39,600 nt of DNA from a virus. Below are positions 745-22,246 of this stretch, piece by piece. A program made the position numbers and the translations under genes. The DNA is taken from the IMG/VR virus record IMGVR_UViG_3300043427_000932, positions 1 to 39,600 of that record; one strand, 5' to 3'. Position 1 is the stretch's first letter. Each line of letters begins with the position of its first letter. The notes under the pieces were generated by a model, which was not told the origin of the DNA, made no database searches, and saw only the letters and a program-made list of their open reading frames with translations.

Positions 745-1185
745 ATGAAGAAGCAAGACATTATTCGTGAGTACCGTTCTGGTGCTGGCGAGTCGTTCCG
801 TAAGGGTGAGGCTTTCGACCTACAAGGTTGGTGTCAAGCGTACGAACTGTATTTGGACTCTGGTCTAGATACTGTTCAGTTCGGAACGGTTTTGGAAGAT
901 GCCGGCTTGAATAAGTTGGCTACTGTCAAGCAGAACCTTTCGCACATCAAGTGGGCGATTGCGTTTCTGTCTGAAACAATGGAAGATGAAGCAACGATTG
1001 CTGATGTCGTTGGTGAGTTTACGGGCGTAAACCAAATCCGTGAAGCCCGTTACGGAAAGAAAGTGAAGCAAGCACCTGCGAAGGTGGCAAGCACAAAGAA
1101 GCCGAAGTTTGACGCTAAGGCGTCTGCTAAGCAGTTCACTGTTGCTCAGTTGTTGGCTATGCTCGCTGAAAAAGGCGTGAAATAG
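745..1185 (+). CDS. Early protein of unknown function
   Basis: This is a 146-aa protein. The ATG at 745 is chosen because GGAAGGA lies just upstream; the frame is open further 5' but that part crosses the leader. The N-terminal 95 residues look like a compact, mainly helical domain (begins MKKQDIIREYRSGAG). A Lys/Ala/Pro-rich basic linker follows (about 105-130), then a short helix ending LLAMLAEKGVK. The basic tail fits nucleic-acid binding, but no family is recognised. Palindrome copy 2 lies inside the coding sequence (1017-1032) and copy 3 directly abuts the stop codon, so this first early gene is framed by the repeat. It is a natural candidate for the protein that reads the repeat; that is inference. 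Confidence 0.8.
   Translation: MKKQDIIREYRSGAGESFRKGEAFDLQGWCQAYELYLDSGLDTVQFGTVLEDAGLNKLATVKQNLSHIKWAIAFLSETMEDEATIADVVGEFTGVNQIREARYGKKVKQAPAKVASTKKPKFDAKASAKQFTVAQLLAMLAEKGVK
1017..1032. promoter_or_regulatory. Palindrome copy 2 (inside a gene)
   Basis: GTTTACG-GG-CGTAAAC has 7-bp arms. It sits inside the coding sequence 745-1185, where it encodes part of an EFTGVN segment. A perfect palindrome kept inside a gene, with the same core and spacing as the intergenic copies, suggests selection on the DNA or RNA as well as on the protein. Confidence 0.6.
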
Positions 1186-1199: not shown

Positions 1200-1209
1200 T
1201 CAACACGAA

Positions 1210-1257
1210 ACGCCGTGAGGCGTCTACGAGTGAGTGCTCGTACTGATGAGTGTCAGT
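1210..1257 (+). promoter_or_regulatory. Three-hairpin RNA leader, copy 1
   Basis: Three consecutive hairpins precede the gene at 1275. Hairpin A is ACGCC (1210-1214), a GTGA tetraloop of the GNRA class, and GGCGT (1219-1223). Hairpin B is TACGAGT (1225-1231), a GAGT loop, and GCTCGTA (1236-1242). Hairpin C is CTGAT (1243-1247), a GAGT loop, and GTCAG (1252-1256). AAAGG (1264-1268) is the ribosome binding site. The same architecture recurs at 1467-1514 and 1743-1790 with paired base changes, which supports a folded RNA. There is no U-tract, so it is not a terminator. Confidence 0.75.
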
Positions 1258-1274
1258 AAATAGAAAGGTCAGTT

Positions 1275-1457
1275 ATGACTGAAATCCATAAGACTTGGAA
1301 CGATGTGCGTTCACAAATCAACGACTTGATTGAGGAGTTGTCTGCGTGGCGTGACTATGAGGAGGAAATCTCGTATGACACCGAGTTTGCCGATTTGCTT
1401 ACAGGTGCTATTGACGGTCTTCTTCCGTTGATGCCTGTTGTTGTTCCTAATCGCTGA
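1275..1457 (+). CDS. Small acidic early protein
   Basis: This is a 60-aa acidic, helical protein (begins MTEIHKTWNDVRSQ) preceded by AAAGG at a good distance. I do not recognise a family. Its segment EFADLLTGAI loosely resembles EFADKAIRSR in the next gene (1534), which is also short, acidic and behind the same kind of leader, so the two may be distant paralogues; that similarity is weak. There is no membrane segment or cysteine cluster. It has its own three-hairpin leader, which suggests tight individual control of translation or mRNA stability. Confidence 0.75.
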   Translation: MTEIHKTWNDVRSQINDLIEELSAWRDYEEEISYDTEFADLLTGAIDGLLPLMPVVVPNR

Positions 1458-1466
1458 CATAACGAA

Positions 1467-1514
1467 ACGCCTTCGGGCGTACACGAATGAGTATTCGTGC
1501 TGATGAGTTATCAG
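1467..1514 (+). promoter_or_regulatory. Three-hairpin RNA leader, copy 2
   Basis: Hairpin A is ACGCC (1467-1471), a TTCG loop, and GGCGT (1476-1480). This is the very stable C(UUCG)G tetraloop, replacing the GTGA of the other copies on the same stem. Hairpin B is CACGAAT (1482-1488), GAGT, and ATTCGTG (1493-1499); relative to copy 1 a G-C pair has become A-T and a T-G pair has become T-A. Hairpin C is CTGAT (1500-1504), a GAGTT loop, and ATCAG (1510-1514). GAAAGGG follows as the ribosome binding site. Confidence 0.75.
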
Positions 1515-1533
1515 TAAACAGAAAGGGTCAGAA

Positions 1534-1707
1534 ATGACTACACAAGAAATGCTTGACCAGTTGGAAATCGAGTTGTTTGGTTTCATCAAGTCCAACGAGC
1601 GCAAAGTGAATGCTCTCGTTGATGAGATTGACGAGATTGTTGCGCAGGCTGAGTTTGCTGACAAGGCAATCCGCTCACGCACTTTCCTTTCGGGTAACCA
1701 ACTGTAA
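1534..1707 (+). CDS. Small acidic early protein
   Basis: This is a 57-aa protein (begins MTTQEMLDQLEIELFG) read from the ATG at 1534 to TAA at 1705-1707, with AAAGGG nine bases upstream. It is acidic, predicted helical and has no cysteines. It may be distantly related to the neighbour at 1275 through the shared EFAD segment, but this is uncertain. It sits between leader copies 2 and 3, and palindrome copy 4 begins three bases after its stop codon. Confidence 0.75.
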   Translation: MTTQEMLDQLEIELFGFIKSNERKVNALVDEIDEIVAQAEFADKAIRSRTFLSGNQL

Positions 1708-1710
1708 TAG

Positions 1711-1724
1711 TTTACGACCGTAAA
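1711..1724. promoter_or_regulatory. Palindrome copy 4
   Basis: TTTACG-AC-CGTAAA lies in the same 19-base context as copy 3, including the TAG before it. It precedes the third three-hairpin leader, so palindrome plus leader form a unit that is present twice. Confidence 0.7.
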
Positions 1725-1742
1725 TCGCGTCTACCCTATGAA

Positions 1743-1790
1743 ACGCCGTGAGGCGTATCACACCTGTGAGTGTGACTGACGATTAGTTAG
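1743..1790 (+). promoter_or_regulatory. Three-hairpin RNA leader, copy 3
   Basis: Hairpin A is ACGCC (1743-1747), GTGA, and GGCGT (1752-1756). Hairpin B has an almost completely different stem that still pairs: TCACAC (1758-1763), loop CTGTGA, and GTGTGA (1770-1775). Hairpin C is CTGAC (1776-1780), GATTA, and GTTAG (1786-1790), with one G-T pair. GAAAGGG follows as the ribosome binding site for the gene at 1810. Conserved pairing with changed sequence is the hallmark of a functional RNA fold. Confidence 0.75.
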
Positions 1791-1809
1791 ATAGCGAAAG
1801 GGCATAGCA

Positions 1810-2124
1810 ATGCCAAGTAACATTAGATTTGCGCCATTTGATTGGTCGCAACTGTATGACGAGACGGAGTTCTCTGTCTACAACGGTGACACTACTGTTG
1901 TGTACAAGCCAACTCCGTTCAATGATGTTGTTGAACATTACGAGCGTTTGCTCGAATTGTTCGCTGATGACAACACTGATGAATACGAACATCTTCCTAT
2001 GTGGGAAGCCGTTCGCATTACAGACGCTACTCGTGGTTGGTATTGGAACGAGAAAGAGCGTTCGCTTATGAAGAAGAACAAGTGGAATAGCAAGCACATT
2101 CCTAAGAGCAGGGAGAACAAGTGA
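1810..2124 (+). CDS. Early protein of unknown function
   Basis: This is a 104-aa protein (begins MPSNIRFAPFDWSQ) with an acidic, Tyr/Trp-rich body and a basic C-terminal tail (KKNKWNSKHIPKSRENK). AAAGGG lies just upstream and the third three-hairpin leader precedes it. There is no recognised domain, signal peptide or membrane segment. The stop TGA shares its last base with the start of a tiny downstream ORF (TGATG), suggesting coupling. Confidence 0.75.
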   Translation: MPSNIRFAPFDWSQLYDETEFSVYNGDTTVVYKPTPFNDVVEHYERLLELFADDNTDEYEHLPMWEAVRITDATRGWYWNEKERSLMKKNKWNSKHIPKSRENK

Positions 2125-2921: not shown

Positions 2922-2930
2922 TGCGCTCAG

Positions 2931-2944
2931 TTTACGAGCGTAAA
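2931..2944. promoter_or_regulatory. Palindrome copy 5
   Basis: GTTTACG-AG-CGTAAAC (2930-2945) has 7-bp arms and lies in the 54-bp gap before the amidoligase gene. This places the amidoligase/amidotransferase pair under the same putative control as the first early genes. Confidence 0.7.
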
Positions 2945-2975
2945 CCACAAACAACAAACCAAATAGGAGACAGTA

Positions 2976-4139
2976 ATGACTACTGACCAAAACACCAATG
3001 AAAACCCAGTCAACGACGAAGTTCCCGACGAACCAGAAACACATCAGTGTGAATGGTGTCAAGATGAAGTAGAGCGTGAGTCAATGTTTGACCACGAGAT
3101 AAGCAGTCGTGGCATGTGGCGCACTGTCCAGCTGTGCGAGTCGTGCGACGACAACGCAACACAATGCGAAGACTGCTCAACATCTATCCACTATGATGAC
3201 GCCTGCTCAATCAACAGTGACTACTATGTGTGTATGAACTGCTACGACAACAACTACAATCACTGTGGTTCTTGTGACTTGGTATGGAACACAAACCATT
3301 ACAGCGAATGCCCCGATGGTTGCGACGACGACGGCAACGACGTCTCAGGTATTGTTCACTCTTGGTCATTCAAGCCCGAGGCTGTGTTCGCCTTTATGCG
3401 TAACGGTGCGCCACGCTACTCCAACATCTTGCCACCCAACATCAGTGTGACTGGTTTCGAGTTAGAGATGGAAGCAGTGAACTGCCAGCGTTACGAAGGT
3501 GTACAACTCGCCAACGACATCTTCAACAACTGGTGCTACTTCAAGGAAGATGGTTCTCTCAGCAACGGTTTCGAGATGGTGTCTCACCCAATGTCGCTTG
3601 ACATTGTTCGTGACACATTCCCTTGGGAACGACTGCGAGAGCTGTCAGAGGTTGGTATGCGTTCTGCGCAGACTCGTACTTGTGGCTTACACATTCACAT
3701 CAACAAGTCGTTCTTTGCTAACAACCCAACCACCATGTACCGCTTTATGTCTATGTTCTACTCCAACGCAGAACAATGGAAGAAGATTGCTGGTCGTAGT
3801 GAGTCGTCATACGCTTCGTGGAGTGAATACGAGCAGTCACAACTGTTGTCGTACACCAAGCACTTCGCTAACCGTAACCATTACAGCAACAGCGACCGTT
3901 ATGTGGCACTCAACTTACAGAACCGCAACACTATCGAGTTGCGTTTCTTCAAGGGTACGCTACGCCCACAATCATTCGTTGCTCGTCTCGAAGCAGTACA
4001 CGCTGTCGCACAGTACGCACAAGAGACACGCAACAATGTGTCTATCAAGCGTGCTCACGACTGGGAACGCTTCCGTGAGTGGACATCACGCAACGGCTTC
4101 ACACACTTCAATACATACGCAGACTCAAAGGGAGTTTAA
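2976..4139 (+). CDS. Zinc-cluster plus amidoligase-like (COOH-NH2 ligase) protein
   Basis: This is a 387-aa protein with AGGAGA upstream. The N-terminal ~120 residues form a dense cysteine cluster, mostly CxxC pairs (C25/C28, C54/C57, C64/C67, C86/C89, C97/C100, C112/C116), typical of zinc ribbons or treble clefs. The rest carries the sequence signature I associate with the Amidoligase_2 family (COOH-NH2 ligases distantly related to glutamine synthetase): GFELEME (160-166), KEDGSLSNGFE (190-200), CGLHIHI (236-242) and TIELRFFKGTL (319-329). Such enzymes use ATP to join a carboxylate to an amine. The next gene encodes a class II glutamine amidotransferase, a known partner of this family, which could supply ammonia. 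The substrate is unknown; the zinc domain may dock it onto a protein or nucleic acid. Confidence 0.8.
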   Translation: MTTDQNTNENPVNDEVPDEPETHQCEWCQDEVERESMFDHEISSRGMWRTVQLCESCDDNATQCEDCSTSIHYDDACSINSDYYVCMNCYDNNYNHCGSCDLVWNTNHYSECPDGCDDDGNDVSGIVHSWSFKPEAVFAFMRNGAPRYSNILPPNISVTGFELEMEAVNCQRYEGVQLANDIFNNWCYFKEDGSLSNGFEMVSHPMSLDIVRDTFPWERLRELSEVGMRSAQTRTCGLHIHINKSFFANNPTTMYRFMSMFYSNAEQWKKIAGRSESSYASWSEYEQSQLLSYTKHFANRNHYSNSDRYVALNLQNRNTIELRFFKGTLRPQSFVARLEAVHAVAQYAQETRNNVSIKRAHDWERFREWTSRNGFTHFNTYADSKGV

Positions 4140-4144
4140 TAACA

Positions 4145-5065
4145 ATGTGTCTCCTTACCTTTATCCCCGAATACACCCAACCCGACATCGACCTGTTGGC
4201 TACTGGCGCACTCAATAACCCTGACGGTTTTGGTTACGCCATTCACACTGGTCGCAATATCATTCACAACTCAGGTTTGAAGTTTGTTCAGATTGCTGAC
4301 GAGTTTCTATCCTTGCGTGACAAGTATCAAGGCCCAGCGTTGTTTCACTCACGTATCACAACACACGGTGGAACTACTGTCGAGAACTGTCACCCATTCC
4401 AAGTTGGCAGAGACGAACTAACTGTTGTTGCTCACAACGGTATGTTGCCTATCACTGCCAAGAACGGCAAGTCGGATACTCGTATCTTTGCCGAGGAAAT
4501 GTTTCCATCTTGGGGTGGTGCGGCTACTCTCAACAGCAAGAAGATGCGCAAGAAACTAGCCAAGTTTGCTAGCGGTTCTAAACTTGTGTTCTTGTCTGCC
4601 AACCCTGATGTTCAGAATGACTTCACTATCATCAACGAGAGTGACGGTCATTGGGACTCTAACGGTGTGTGGTGGTCTAACAACTCATACAAGTACGAAC
4701 GCTACACATACTCCGGCGGTGGTATGTACACGACTGGTTGGTCTAAGTCGTCTAAGGGTGTGTACACCCCAGCCGACACCGACTATGACGACCCGACTGA
4801 CAGCCCGTATGTCATCGACTGTTCATACGAAGACCACAACGGCGAGACTGTGTGGGAGGAGTTGTGGATTTGTGCGACCTGTGGTTACACACATACATTC
4901 AACGAGTCCAACATCAACGACGCCGACCTGTGTCCGCAGTGTGACACCTGTTGGTTCTGCTTCGAGGACAGAATGCTGTGCTCTTGCTACCCACCACAGG
5001 CTGACCTGGTTTCGCAGAGTGCGTACTCTATCGGTAACTACGACTCACCAATCGACTTCTTCTAA
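4145..5065 (+). CDS. Class II glutamine amidotransferase with C-terminal zinc ribbon
   Basis: This is a 306-aa protein. The ATG at 4145 puts Cys at residue 2, the catalytic N-terminal nucleophile of the Ntn-type class II glutaminases after Met removal; GGGAG lies upstream. The frame extends further 5' but would bury this Cys, so that start is rejected. Family motifs are NPDGFGY (25-31), FHSRITTHGG (67-76), NCHPF (81-85), AHNGM (96-100) and SDTRIF (110-115). A linker rich in Tyr, Ser and Asp follows, then a C-terminal Cys cluster (C243/C246, C263/C266, C269/C272, C279/C281) that resembles zinc ribbons. It lies five bases after the amidoligase-like gene, so a two-protein amide-forming system is likely. 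The reaction in the phage is unknown. Confidence 0.85.
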   Translation: MCLLTFIPEYTQPDIDLLATGALNNPDGFGYAIHTGRNIIHNSGLKFVQIADEFLSLRDKYQGPALFHSRITTHGGTTVENCHPFQVGRDELTVVAHNGMLPITAKNGKSDTRIFAEEMFPSWGGAATLNSKKMRKKLAKFASGSKLVFLSANPDVQNDFTIINESDGHWDSNGVWWSNNSYKYERYTYSGGGMYTTGWSKSSKGVYTPADTDYDDPTDSPYVIDCSYEDHNGETVWEELWICATCGYTHTFNESNINDADLCPQCDTCWFCFEDRMLCSCYPPQADLVSQSAYSIGNYDSPIDFF

Positions 5066-19300: not shown

Positions 19301-22246
19301 GCTGACACGAGTATTTACCTGCATGTTTGCACCCATCAACTCGGCCCAGTTTTCTTCAGAGTCACCAAGCAGTGCAGAAACCTTAGGATACTTTGTGCCA
19401 ATAATTTCTCTGAGGCGTTCAGAAGGAAGTGGCAAAGAAGCAACTTCCGGATTAGTCTTCATTATATCTTGAACTTGCTTACCAAATTCTCTAGCAAACT
19501 TTTCTAGTTCAAGAAGTTCATCTTTATAACTGATTACACGGTCATAGTCGACCTGTACTTGTGATTCCCACATCTTACGACCAGTACGGCGAGTACCCTG
19601 TGCAAGTGCCACACGTTGGCTTTCATCATAAGCAATAGCCTCATCAACACGGCGCAGACGCTCAATCAACTTATGGCGCATCTTCTGAATAGGCTCAGGA
19701 ATTGCAGAACCATACAAACGCTCGTCACTAGCCAAAGAGAACAAAGCCGCAATACGCATTTCGTTCGCATCAATATTTGTATCGTATGCTTTGTTTAAAA
19801 CGTTATACAAATCGCTAACACTAAACTTAGATACATCAGTATTGTTCAATCCAGAATGGATTGTAACAGCATCAAAGATTCCATTTTCTGAGTTAACCCA
19901 TTTGGTCAAAAAGTCTTGTAGTTCACCAGCAAGATTAAACTGCTCGTCAATAACTTTCCGCACTGTGTCCGTTGTTACCGCACCATCACGAGCTAATACA
20001 GCAAGGATATTCTGAACTTCTTGGCTACCGCCAAAATATGTTTCTCCACGAGACATGGCTTGAAGACCTTCTTCAAGAGCGTTACCAAACTGCATAACAA
20101 CCTTAAGGCGTTCCTCTGCTTGACTCATGCGGCGAGACACGGCATCAATAGCATCAGCAGCCATCTTTACTGCATCATCAAGTTCCTTGCCGGTCTTGTT
20201 TAGAGTCATTGCTGTGATTTCGTCGGTAAGACGAAGCATGTCGCTTTCAAGAGTATCAAGGAATCCAAGCATGCCATCAGCAGCCAACGGCGTGTCTGCT
20301 GCATCAGCACCAGCTTTAGCTACAAGCTTTCCGTTCTTATACTCTGCACCAAACAAAGCAGCGAACTTCTTCTTCCACTGACCAAGTGAACCAGCAACCA
20401 TTTCAAGCTGGTCTGCTGTCAAACGAATATCGCCCGCAAGCACAGCATCCAAAGACTTTTGTAGATTACCAATCGTTTCTACACTGTCCAATTCCTTTTG
20501 AGCAGCATCTAACGACTCTTTAAGACTCTTAGAAAACTCGTCAATATTCGTGCGTAACGACTTGACAGCCTCCGCTGTCTGTCGTGCAAGACTAGCCATA
20601 TCGTCATCTAAAGACTTGATGTTTTTCTTTACGGCTTCAATAAGTTCCTTGTCGATAAACTCACCTGTAACGTTTACGCTTTCGGCACGCTTCCAAAATC
20701 CAGTCTCCACCAAATGCTTATGACGTGCAAGAACACCAACTTCCTTAGCGTACTCACCGATGTATCTATTAAGAACCTTAGAGATGTCTGTTTCAAAGAA
20801 GTCCCCGCCAAAACCAGCTTCACGCGCAATCTCGTTCAACTTACTGGTTGACTTCAAATCCTCAGCAGTAAGTTTCTTTCCAAAGAAATCATCGCCCACT
20901 TCCAGTGTACGTGCTTTAAAGTTCCGTCCACCAGCCAACGGGTCACGAGCAAACACAGAGCGTAAAGAAGATGAGTGCGTTGCAGACGCATCAGCAATAT
21001 ATTCTAAACCATCTTCTGACAACATGCGTGGAAAATAGTTAGCACGGAAACGAGTTGTTGGGTCAATAGATGGGTCAATCTCTTTAAGAAGAGTTGTGAT
21101 GTTATCCTCGTATCCACCAAACAAATCACGCCACACCTGTGCAGCACGTTGCAACTCTGGTGAAGCAGCATTAAAAAGTTCGTCGCTTTCAATCAAGTCT
21201 GGCAACTTGGCTTTGTATCCGTCAAGACCCATGCCCTTCTCTGTTTCAAGCAGGTTTAAAGCTTTGCGCTGTTCAAGTGCTAAAGCCTCACCGGCTGCAG
21301 CACGTTGAATTGGGTCAGCATTGAAATAACTAATAAGAGCAGCAGCAGCATCATCGCCAACACGACCCTGCAACATCGCTTGACGTGCAGCAAGATTATC
21401 AGAAGATAATGTCATCTTTTGTAGCCACTGTCCTGCTTTCCCTTTAGATGCGGATACACGCAGTTTAGAAAGGGCGTTATCTCCAAGCATGCCAATAGCA
21501 CCAGAACCCGGCAAACGCCAACCTTGACTACTCTTACCAACTTTTATACGCTTACCCAAGAAGTACAAACCATGACGGTTTGCTCCCAGCATCTCAAGCA
21601 TCTCTGCATCTTTAATTGCGGCACGACCATAACGCTGAACCTTGTTAGCAAGGGCAGCGTCCTTTGTGAGTTTCAAAACGTTATTAGCCAAATCCAAACG
21701 ACCAGCATAACCAGCAAACTTTGCACCACCAAAAGTAACATAGTTCAACGGGTCGGTAACCATGTCGCCAGCAAAACCAAGAGCACGGTCCAACCAAATA
21801 TTACCAGTGTCAATCTTGAGGGCTTTACCAATACCATAAGACGGGTCTTTGGTGTTCTTGATAAAGTCAGAGAAGCTAGCCTTTGTTGTTGGGTCACTGT
21901 CGCGAGAATCGATAATTTCACGGATACCAGCAGCAACACCACGACCCGGAATAGACAACACATTCAAAGCACCCAAAACAGTTTTAGAAACCGGGTTACT
22001 AACCAACGCCCCAACAGCACCCTTAGGTTCAGCAGCCTGTCGGCCACCAGCAATAGCGTCAATCTGTTGACGCAAAGTAGGATTAGAAATAGCCAACCCA
22101 GTAGCAGCACGTCCCAAACTTACGCTAGCAGCACTAGCAGCAGGAGGCAAAGCAGAGCCAGCATATCCGTTTGAAGCCCCCGACTGTGCCTGCTGACGCA
22201 TAAGACGCGCCATAGCGAAACGAGGGTCATTTACAACATTAGCCAT
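13373..22246 (-). CDS. Giant late protein (2957 aa), presumed internal virion/ejection protein
   Basis: One uninterrupted frame fills 22% of the genome. There is no signal peptide. The N-terminus is Ala/Gly-rich. The middle, roughly residues 500-2100, is dominated by long Glu/Lys/Arg-rich helical and coiled-coil stretches. The C-terminal quarter has more hydrophobic segments, including LSPGFHVRNSISNVFSMF (near residue 2585) and DIVPFWMWMSRNLPLQI (near 2740), blocks I associate with large phage virion proteins. I find no polymerase, protease or transglycosylase motif. Podoviruses place large ejection proteins after the tail genes, exactly this position; in a genome without a long tail a tape measure is unlikely. 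The upstream ribosome binding site is weak. Function is inferred from size and context. Confidence 0.75.
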   Translation of the reverse strand: MANVVNDPRFAMARLMRQQAQSGASNGYAGSALPPAASAASVSLGRAATGLAISNPTLRQQIDAIAGGRQAAEPKGAVGALVSNPVSKTVLGALNVLSIPGRGVAAGIREIIDSRDSDPTTKASFSDFIKNTKDPSYGIGKALKIDTGNIWLDRALGFAGDMVTDPLNYVTFGGAKFAGYAGRLDLANNVLKLTKDAALANKVQRYGRAAIKDAEMLEMLGANRHGLYFLGKRIKVGKSSQGWRLPGSGAIGMLGDNALSKLRVSASKGKAGQWLQKMTLSSDNLAARQAMLQGRVGDDAAAALISYFNADPIQRAAAGEALALEQRKALNLLETEKGMGLDGYKAKLPDLIESDELFNAASPELQRAAQVWRDLFGGYEDNITTLLKEIDPSIDPTTRFRANYFPRMLSEDGLEYIADASATHSSSLRSVFARDPLAGGRNFKARTLEVGDDFFGKKLTAEDLKSTSKLNEIAREAGFGGDFFETDISKVLNRYIGEYAKEVGVLARHKHLVETGFWKRAESVNVTGEFIDKELIEAVKKNIKSLDDDMASLARQTAEAVKSLRTNIDEFSKSLKESLDAAQKELDSVETIGNLQKSLDAVLAGDIRLTADQLEMVAGSLGQWKKKFAALFGAEYKNGKLVAKAGADAADTPLAADGMLGFLDTLESDMLRLTDEITAMTLNKTGKELDDAVKMAADAIDAVSRRMSQAEERLKVVMQFGNALEEGLQAMSRGETYFGGSQEVQNILAVLARDGAVTTDTVRKVIDEQFNLAGELQDFLTKWVNSENGIFDAVTIHSGLNNTDVSKFSVSDLYNVLNKAYDTNIDANEMRIAALFSLASDERLYGSAIPEPIQKMRHKLIERLRRVDEAIAYDESQRVALAQGTRRTGRKMWESQVQVDYDRVISYKDELLELEKFAREFGKQVQDIMKTNPEVASLPLPSERLREIIGTKYPKVSALLGDSEENWAELMGANMQVNTRVSNVEHMADVEGAKWFNTRETDTEIQYKKYSTGSGFTEVDKNVPVEIGRMAPSVEEEYTFTEFLDLVNQRISRINSYMDEPVFKYGVGVSEKSYTGKELVARYDKYMQLKDELSEIGRVRREFEEDIRIRLGYYDIDLEEVGVSADELARRKSKVEYIKQRARTEAGAKEFDDVFIYQLKVQGYFKIPRDSADFIAARERAYDRATNAFLDVKSKRPGQRVVTKDGKVVVNKRQSRVTFGDKYSEVRDRIAEIAGTDENIRPQWLQSLETEKRALAADLTDYAMVSEIHSRFNGVAGILNGFGLVPTQRMFGQVIDTVNQKFVPRITSKISALNESYTILKDMDIEVSRRLAANDSGQTPAQIFSDVLNSLTPSQKAKLQEAIGDELNWTADPYDLKVGLYKATKGKSGKSSGSMRNADGTIKVDKNGKAIPMPSEKRVAENEYYESFVRPWFESRFPNKKYSKEAAKTELRRLAPSRSKEIASTVSAFAEGAEPSVIRNWFTSLIGSSEIRGRAGNRIVTSDGPLIGRRIRELREAEKRYRSMLLPDLDIAKFFDDPSIAQKTPTWYAYMLQDHADRLERSINVKRAKNEQIVASRTRVGELEADVVGKQAEYERVRSAPELIDRLQRSRNALVDRRDALQAKTTLTNTEKRELAGLPAKIKTANDELAKASRLPKATQENIAGAERRRQRINQASKPRLELETELDELKTEGRVLYNKSRTTKGLTKKEDSRLKAIQKRVGQINEELKKPLVGEDGKPLRETPRDRDVFNIPKAQRNLEGANKIIDEYNELIGLPTYSKAMDDKAMIDAMVALSRFDLSRFEDGFIVVRADNGVLPDGTYGVLKPAEYATMPDGSRIVFSKDEWDSLYKPDYPLEERQRLIGEVQERIAFIKRDTNNLTSQLRPLEKQLANVPQEFLGRTAPEGYSRQYKQIQDLVFRVNELKKRIKWNNEDLQDAVSAVEALNPQTQQIALMKLKVLVHGSEAKGARVASRPVFNGEGLSKFLSFEHPSQSVFSVRSKDTLLFEGTTSAEELGGKAKVNSIINRQQSISMSEGMARSKAVFPEAEAVKRAERIQHTWSLTDEKALLDRADKLRNNLFVRMDFDMREDIFAGQSVVETARAEVARIIRESQGLGGEVDKARARARDIAETADVLTEQRTGLPAGTRLDEKFVDDAGNSVYREPGERIDPGLTREVDEDGVPFVSAENLRSPDDFREFSEMVIDNNAPSGPFALRADQPQSAENLRLIGERFDKQITAEQERLTELTTSGASKRQIKISENKIQRLRDAKEEALVRARGEEAAVAEYLDVRQKMQPTGQYKENGTPIYAPMEEIRAYNAAKQTAEEWNKENKAALDLARKAWDEKSLAYDNAQVIVREIQRQNEVVTAEINRRFGGADEYFDYVMNQRNLVESLQKQIADIESLSKMPPKTAGDILMAAAKTGKGVKKPSKAKVDEAISQYRVWLRENKPVFDKLASEPNNPVYKAWAAAAQADADLMWLQFSKGYALENLASAELPAWKTIVVEPFAKEWEKAAKASGLYDNMARGGTLGKEGKSTGFPGLMGNKQALDLLDNIARIREPGVVDDLSRFMRGYTGFFRAYATLSPGFHVRNSISNVFSMFAAGADVKNMREGFRYWRLFDSAMKSGKSVDEFIASLPEEVRPFVQISARTVLGLGGGRVDNAMEGFARGGNKLTSNGLLDMSRQAGHNLEGSARFMLAYDSAVKGFNFNESFNRTGRFLIDYNKRTLLDDNMRDIVPFWMWMSRNLPLQIMNRWANPKPYLTWQKVQKNFGQENERGEVTPGYLQGMGAINLGGGKYFNPDLPFTRVNEQVQDLANPRKLMSYVNPGIRAPLEFLMNSNTYTGRPFADKFHKVDGALIPFLPLLEATGQVSHDSRGNPVVSERAYSLLMNMIPPLGRAERLFPAEGSGNAGNALAGFVGLPFTNVTAEMQDKEKLRRMFAMQELAKQQGNIQEAQ

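Follow-up and report, generated by a model that had tools for sequence, protein, structure and literature searches.

Type II hammerhead ribozymes between phage genes carry a covarying tail hairpin that would sequester the catalytic core

The window analysed here is a 39,600-nucleotide stretch of viral DNA (IMG/VR record IMGVR_UViG_3300043427_000932, positions 1 to 39,600). It is a podovirus-like genome, with genes for an SU10/P22-type portal, a terminase, a DnaB-like helicase, a PD-(D/E)XK nuclease and an amidoligase. Within the phage collection its terminase is closest, at 49.5% identity, to that of the metagenomic record MW202803 (MW202803.1, our locus L411), which has an annotated RNA ligase at 20569-21669. 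The amidoligase gene, through which the relatives discussed below were found, adjoins a gene for a class-II glutamine amidotransferase-like protein (a weak match, below cut-off), and a possible role of the pair is peptide or cell-wall modification. In the same part of the genome three small genes, all on the plus strand, are each preceded by a structured leader (Table 1), in agreement with the original prediction, and it is these leaders that concern us here.

Table 1. Positions of the leaders, their parts and neighbouring features in the window
Feature	Position	Strand	Details
Palindromes	714-729, 1017-1032, 1185-1200, 1710-1725, 2930-2945		16 bp each
Gene between first palindromes	745-1185		about 146 aa
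Hammerhead copy 1	1203-1253	+	stem II 1203-1206/1250-1253; GAA 1207-1209; stem III 1210-1223; H17 C1224 (predicted cut 1224/1225); stem I 1225-1242; core CUGAUGA 1243-1249
Hairpin C, copy 1	1243-1256	+	CUGAU 1243-1247/GUCAG 1252-1256, one U.G
Small gene after copy 1	1275-1457	+	60 aa; start 25 nt past core
Hammerhead copy 2	1459-1511	+	stem II 1459-1463/1507-1511; GAA 1464-1466; stem III 1467-1480; H17 A1481 (predicted cut 1481/1482); stem I 1482-1499; core 1500-1506
Hairpin C, copy 2	1500-1514	+	CUGAU 1500-1504/AUCAG 1510-1514
Small gene after copy 2	1534-1707	+	57 aa; start 27 nt past core
Hammerhead copy 3	1730-1791	+	stem II CUA 1736-1738/UAG 1784-1786, behind U1739.U1783 mismatch; distal stem II UCUA 1730-1733/UAGA 1788-1791, beyond CC/U internal loop; GAA 1740-1742; stem III 1743-1756; H17 A1757 (predicted cut 1757/1758); stem I 1758-1775; core CUGACGA 1776-1782
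Hairpin C, copy 3	1776-1790	+	CUGAC 1776-1780/GUUAG 1786-1790, one G.U
Small gene after copy 3	1810-2124	+	104 aa; start 27 nt past core
Amidoligase gene	2976-4139		
Glutamine amidotransferase-like gene	4079-5065		class II

The leaders lie among five near-identical 16-bp palindromes, GTTTACGnnCGTAAAC, where 0.09 would be expected in the window at up to two mismatches. Most relatives (L124-L135) have three to six copies at matching sites, with a sequence that differs per phage group (CTCCCCAnGCnTGGGGAG, CTCGGAA..TTCCGAG, CTCGGACTCGTGTCCGAG and TGATAGACCTCTATCA), and the copies within one phage all change together. They resemble the operators or "stoperators" of a DNA-binding protein that co-evolves with them. 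The gene between the first palindromes has no Pfam or PHROG match in the window; its counterpart in L124-L135 is the ORF between palindromes 1 and 2. The gene diverges largely in step with the palindrome class, identity being about 96-100% inside the CTCCCCA group and 24-64% between most of the others, so its product is a candidate for the cognate regulator.

The original prediction described each leader as a series of three hairpins, A, B and C, and most of what it reported holds in the letters. Stem A (ACGCC/GGCGT) is kept, with the loops GUGA, UUCG and GUGA; stem B is wholly changed from copy to copy and paired all the same (TACGAG/CTCGTA, CACGAA/TTCGTG, TCACAC/GTGTGA); hairpin C retains its pairing (CTGAT/GTCAG, CTGAT/ATCAG, CTGAC/GTTAG); and the U-tract of a terminator is absent. 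The loop sequence GAGT is shared by copies 1 and 2 as described, but not by these two only, for copy 3 has it too. Copy 1 shares 81% identity with copy 2 over 47 nt and 62% with copy 3, and folding of the single copies is modest to good (z of -1.6, -3.6 and -2.6 for copies 1, 2 and 3). At up to two mismatches the stem A motif occurs five times (the three copies and two reverse readings) against 0.72 expected.

Overlooked was a further helix, in which the bases just before GAAA pair with those after CUGANGA (ACAC/GUGU in copy 1, AUAAC/GUUAU in copy 2, CUA/UAG in copy 3), so that the first element begins at 1203 and not at 1210. Every leader opens with GAAA, followed by stem A, a non-G base, stem B and CUGAUGA or CUGACGA. 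The added helix is stem II of a hammerhead, hairpins A and B correspond to its stems III and I, respectively, and hairpin C overlays the catalytic core CUGANGA. The full hammerhead consensus is present in all three copies: C3-U-G-A-N-G-A9, G12-A-A14, the A15.1-U16.1 pair and an H17 that is not G, with the cores CUGAUGA, CUGAUGA and CUGACGA, GAAA and U16.1 throughout, and C, A and A at H17 in copies 1, 2 and 3. Stems I and III are closed by loops and stem II is open and covaries, which is what defines type II. We therefore regard it as practically certain that the three leaders are type II hammerhead ribozymes, a known kind, and the view that no described RNA family has this build gives way to RF02276 (Perreault et al. 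2011, PMC3088659), with which they share the order GAAA-stem III-NUH-stem I-CUGANGA. Readings as terminators, riboswitches or protein-binding leaders were rejected, as they leave stem II and the invariant core unexplained.

A hammerhead scanner run over the window returned exactly three matches, the three copies. In Rfam at a relaxed threshold, the sole family was RF02276 (Hammerhead_II), for copy 1 alone at 24.5 bits (E 0.028), below the gathering cut-off of 37 bits, with copies 2 and 3 unlisted; at the gathering threshold there was no match in the window or in five other loci holding the hairpin-C type. Since a gathering score governs detection and does not describe structure, we keep the structural assignment. 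A blastn search of the region against 50,697 phage records matched nothing. On the basis of the consensus and the published activity of similar RNAs, we infer cleavage after H17 at the positions in Table 1. A GUA triplet and a U.U at 10.1/11.1 usually slow hammerhead cleavage; copies 2 and 3 carry the triplet, and copy 3 the U.U as well. This first stem II pair is G-C in copies 1 and 2, and its U.U form is a variant known in natural hammerheads (PMC3088659).

The hammerheads are not confined to this phage. In 99 related loci, 698,604 bp in all, the scanner found 16, against none when the sequence was reversed. This bears out the expectation of more copies upstream of small genes in related phages. 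Relatives carry one to three hammerheads within the same gene module, with downstream genes that vary; the distance from core to ATG is mostly 23-29 nt there. The element with the U.U is near-identical in window copy 3, L124, L129 and L130, and among the four genes that follow it no similarity was detected, which suggests that the ribozyme is retained while genes are swapped. The gene after copy 2 has homologues in L126, L127 and L129, likewise behind a hammerhead. More widely, a pattern search of viral contigs in which only stem III and the core were fixed (GAAACGCC..GGCGU..CUGANGA) matched at least 120 stretches, and stems I and II, neither of them in the pattern, were base-paired in nearly all of the approximately 140 matches listed. 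Of the hammerheads collected overall, 93-96% have a stop codon no more than 60 nt upstream (random places 40%) and 83-95% a start codon with an ORF no more than 60 nt downstream (random places 29%), percentages that are estimates depending on the chosen stem III sequences and on the matches listed; for the UCAG/UUAG-type elements described below the fractions are 0.96 versus 0.40 upstream and 0.95 versus 0.29 for an ATG ORF downstream. This intergenic placement matches that of the published clustered phage hammerheads. In about 60 viral members (for example L045, L055 and L059) A9 is separated by an additional U or a mismatch from a stem II of 3-5 bp, and the same type of variant occurs in 66 members from genome contigs; a bulged U after CUGANGA may thus be commoner than the consensus implies.

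What remains to be explained is hairpin C, which uses the catalytic bases C3-N7 and so excludes stem II and the active ribozyme. Among 237 type II hammerheads listed, collected regardless of their tails, 34 have UCAG in the tail, complementary to core CUGA, while permutations of the same four letters have a median of one per set. In all 34 the base preceding UCAG (N7') is the Watson-Crick partner of core position 7 (C-G in 20, U-A in 14). Were hairpin C accidental, the base facing N7 would not track it; after clustering of all sets at 75% identity it does so in 36 of 37 clusters, an agreement that none of 20,000 permutations reached (the best gave 30). The pair is swapped between close relatives (U-A in L104, C-G in L242 and L249), and the L225/L233/L284 group contains the intermediates U.G and C.A. 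When tails were compared with every 5-mer of the RNA, complementarity had just two peaks, at loop I (the known pseudoknot) and at C3-N7, the latter with 43 cases against at most four for neighbouring 5-mers. The loop I pseudoknot is common in type II hammerheads without being universal; pairing of loop I with the tail over at least 4 bp was found in 112 of the 237 members listed in this collected set. The window copies fit the variant in which a stem II of 4-5 bp is followed by an N7'UCAG tail with N7' complementary to N7, with deviations in copy 1 (U.G at the N7 pair) and copy 3 (UUAG tail, C-G at the N7 pair, a 3-bp inner stem II); the N7 pair of copy 2 is U-A. In some relatives UCAG lies within stem II and gives merely a 4-bp CUGA/UCAG hairpin.

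Covariation, judged by direct pair counts, was examined in 30 aligned members. Stem II is paired in 100% of them, and double changes occur at three of its four pairs; the N7 pair is U-A in 20, C-G in nine and mismatched in one, with nine double changes, so the claim of a structured RNA family with real covariation stands. Because the core cannot vary, four of the five hairpin C pairs are invariant, and the covariation support comes from the one remaining pair, N7-N7'. The RNAalifold consensus is the three-hairpin fold, with hairpin C lengthened by G8. Stem II and hairpin C are mutually exclusive and both covary; thus two alternative folds appear, from these alignments, to be under selection. 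The idea that the leaders are non-catalytic, and that their three hairpins bind a protein or protect the mRNA, draws on the stability and conservation of this fold; we give it very little credence, as it accounts neither for stem II covariation nor for the invariant CUGANGA and GAAA. The three-hairpin fold is best read as a second, non-catalytic or post-cleavage state of the hammerhead RNA.

A simpler view would have these be ordinary constitutive hammerheads in which hairpin C is minor and the main reason for retaining UCAG is that it lengthens stem II distally (CUG/CAG or CUA/UAG). Such an extension is possible in copies 2 and 3 and in some relatives (L132), but many GGCC-GUCAG members have no upstream CUGAC partner, and this view predicts no covariation with N7; we consider it improbable. 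In its strict form, with UCAG kept only for the extension, it was rejected, the GGCC-GUCAG lineages and the N7 covariation being left unexplained. The alternative hairpin was not found for type II hammerheads in the open-access literature searched, so what appears to be new here is a core-sequestering hairpin with covariation at position 7, not a new ribozyme class. In the published type II consensus the tail forms a pseudoknot with loop I, whereas the tail here pairs with core C3-N7; likewise stem II has 4-5 bp here as against about 2 bp in the Rfam RF02276 consensus. A pattern search of genome contigs for the UCAG type gave no match, and none of 111 type II hammerheads there has it; as only 12 of these 111 have a 4-bp stem II, we make no claim that the type is restricted to viruses.

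A further UCAG adjoins the ribosome-binding site in copies 1 and 2, and in copy 2 positions 1526-1531 are able to form a helix with the CTGAC located at the stop codon of the upstream gene (1454-1458), enclosing the ribosome-binding site before cleavage. This second UCAG was not seen beside the ribosome-binding site among the relatives examined.

The frequency of the UCAG tail depends on the length of stem II. Among the members listed, it is present in 10 of 17 with 5 bp, 64 of 163 with 4 bp, three of 113 with 3 bp and none of 20 with 2 bp, or, pooled, in 74 of 180 with 4-5 bp versus three of 133 with 2-3 bp. A long stem II would hold the cut products together, and it is there, where release would need help, that hairpin C is concentrated. 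In an energy model that excludes tertiary contacts, formation of hairpin C in the 3' product gains a median of 6.5 kcal/mol, and re-association of stem II changes from -6.4 kcal/mol without hairpin C to 0.0 with it (median of 99). The 3' products of the window copies and relatives are all predicted to fold into stem I plus a CUGA hairpin.

By calculation, RNAs with a 5-bp hairpin C are more stable in the three-hairpin fold than in the hammerhead secondary structure even when uncut, so hairpin C could also act before the cut. It may then be an off switch, with the core held inactive while a terminating ribosome covers the 5' strand of stem II and GAAA; once the ribosome departs, stem II would displace hairpin C and the RNA would be cut, so that cleavage would report translation of the upstream gene. 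The median distance from stop codon to GAAA is 5 nt, which is inside the footprint of a terminating ribosome. In the calculations, uncut copies 2 and 3 have their energy minimum in the three-hairpin fold, and in all three copies this fold comes out ahead of the hammerhead secondary structure. However, hammerheads without the UCAG tail show equal stop-codon spacing, window copies 1 and 3 begin 21 and 32 nt past their stop codons, and stem I-loop tertiary contacts, which lie outside the energy model, favour the active fold. We hold the off switch to be rather unlikely, though the chief rival to the mechanism proposed next.

We moderately favour a mechanism in which cutting comes first, followed by refolding, release and capping, a preference that leans on the stem II lengths and the calculated energies. 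Each hammerhead sits between two phage genes of the same strand, which would be transcribed together. Closure of stem II would lead to cleavage of the polycistronic RNA after H17, upon which the upstream mRNA would end in the stem III hairpin and the downstream mRNA would begin with a 5'-OH right at stem I. The freed core C3-N7 would then pair with the tail N7'UCAG to form hairpin C, drawing the 3' strand of stem II into its loop, parting the products and precluding re-ligation. The downstream mRNA would keep a pair of neighbouring hairpins at its 5' end, with the ribosome-binding site left free behind them as in RiboJ, an arrangement that may stabilise and insulate it.

Several elements of this proposal have parallels. 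Clusters of hammerheads between phage genes have been published (Perreault 2011, PMC3088659), including, as here, a triple arrangement; that one, around ardA, cuts in vitro and in E. coli, and it was suggested that clustered hammerheads may split long phage transcripts into single-gene mRNAs (PMC3088659). RiboJ is an engineered sTRSV hammerhead with a 23-nt hairpin, which after cleavage is left 5' of the ribosome-binding site, where it may increase both the mRNA level and translation (PMC6206723). The predicted folds described here resemble it in this respect, but the RiboJ hairpin is separate and added, while here the catalytic core itself would join the second hairpin; the present elements are, moreover, natural and of a different permutation. 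One RNA with a catalytic and a non-catalytic fold is also seen in viroids, whose alternative conformations hide hammerhead cores. There, the folds are long-range ones of the genome; here, a local hairpin of 5-6 bp would form on CUGANG.

Taken together, we consider it probable that a widespread class of phage hammerheads is a two-state RNA, in which core position N7, usually considered unconstrained, is under selection for pairing because CUGAN(G) also forms a hairpin with the tail, and that this makes intergenic mRNA cleavage irreversible and caps the 5' end, or ties cleavage to the ribosomes of the upstream gene. As the hairpin-C subtype falls below the Rfam cut-off in the loci tried, it is likely to be under-annotated, and it would be the natural counterpart of the RiboJ insulator. 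Why bacteriophages keep hammerheads between their genes was described as an open question in both Perreault et al. 2011 (PMC3088659) and a 2017 review (PMC6155905). A conserved second fold on the catalytic core offers a specific, mutable handle on their role: the N7-N7' pair lies at a core position where variation is tolerated, and breaking and then repairing it would separate cutting from the steps that follow it.
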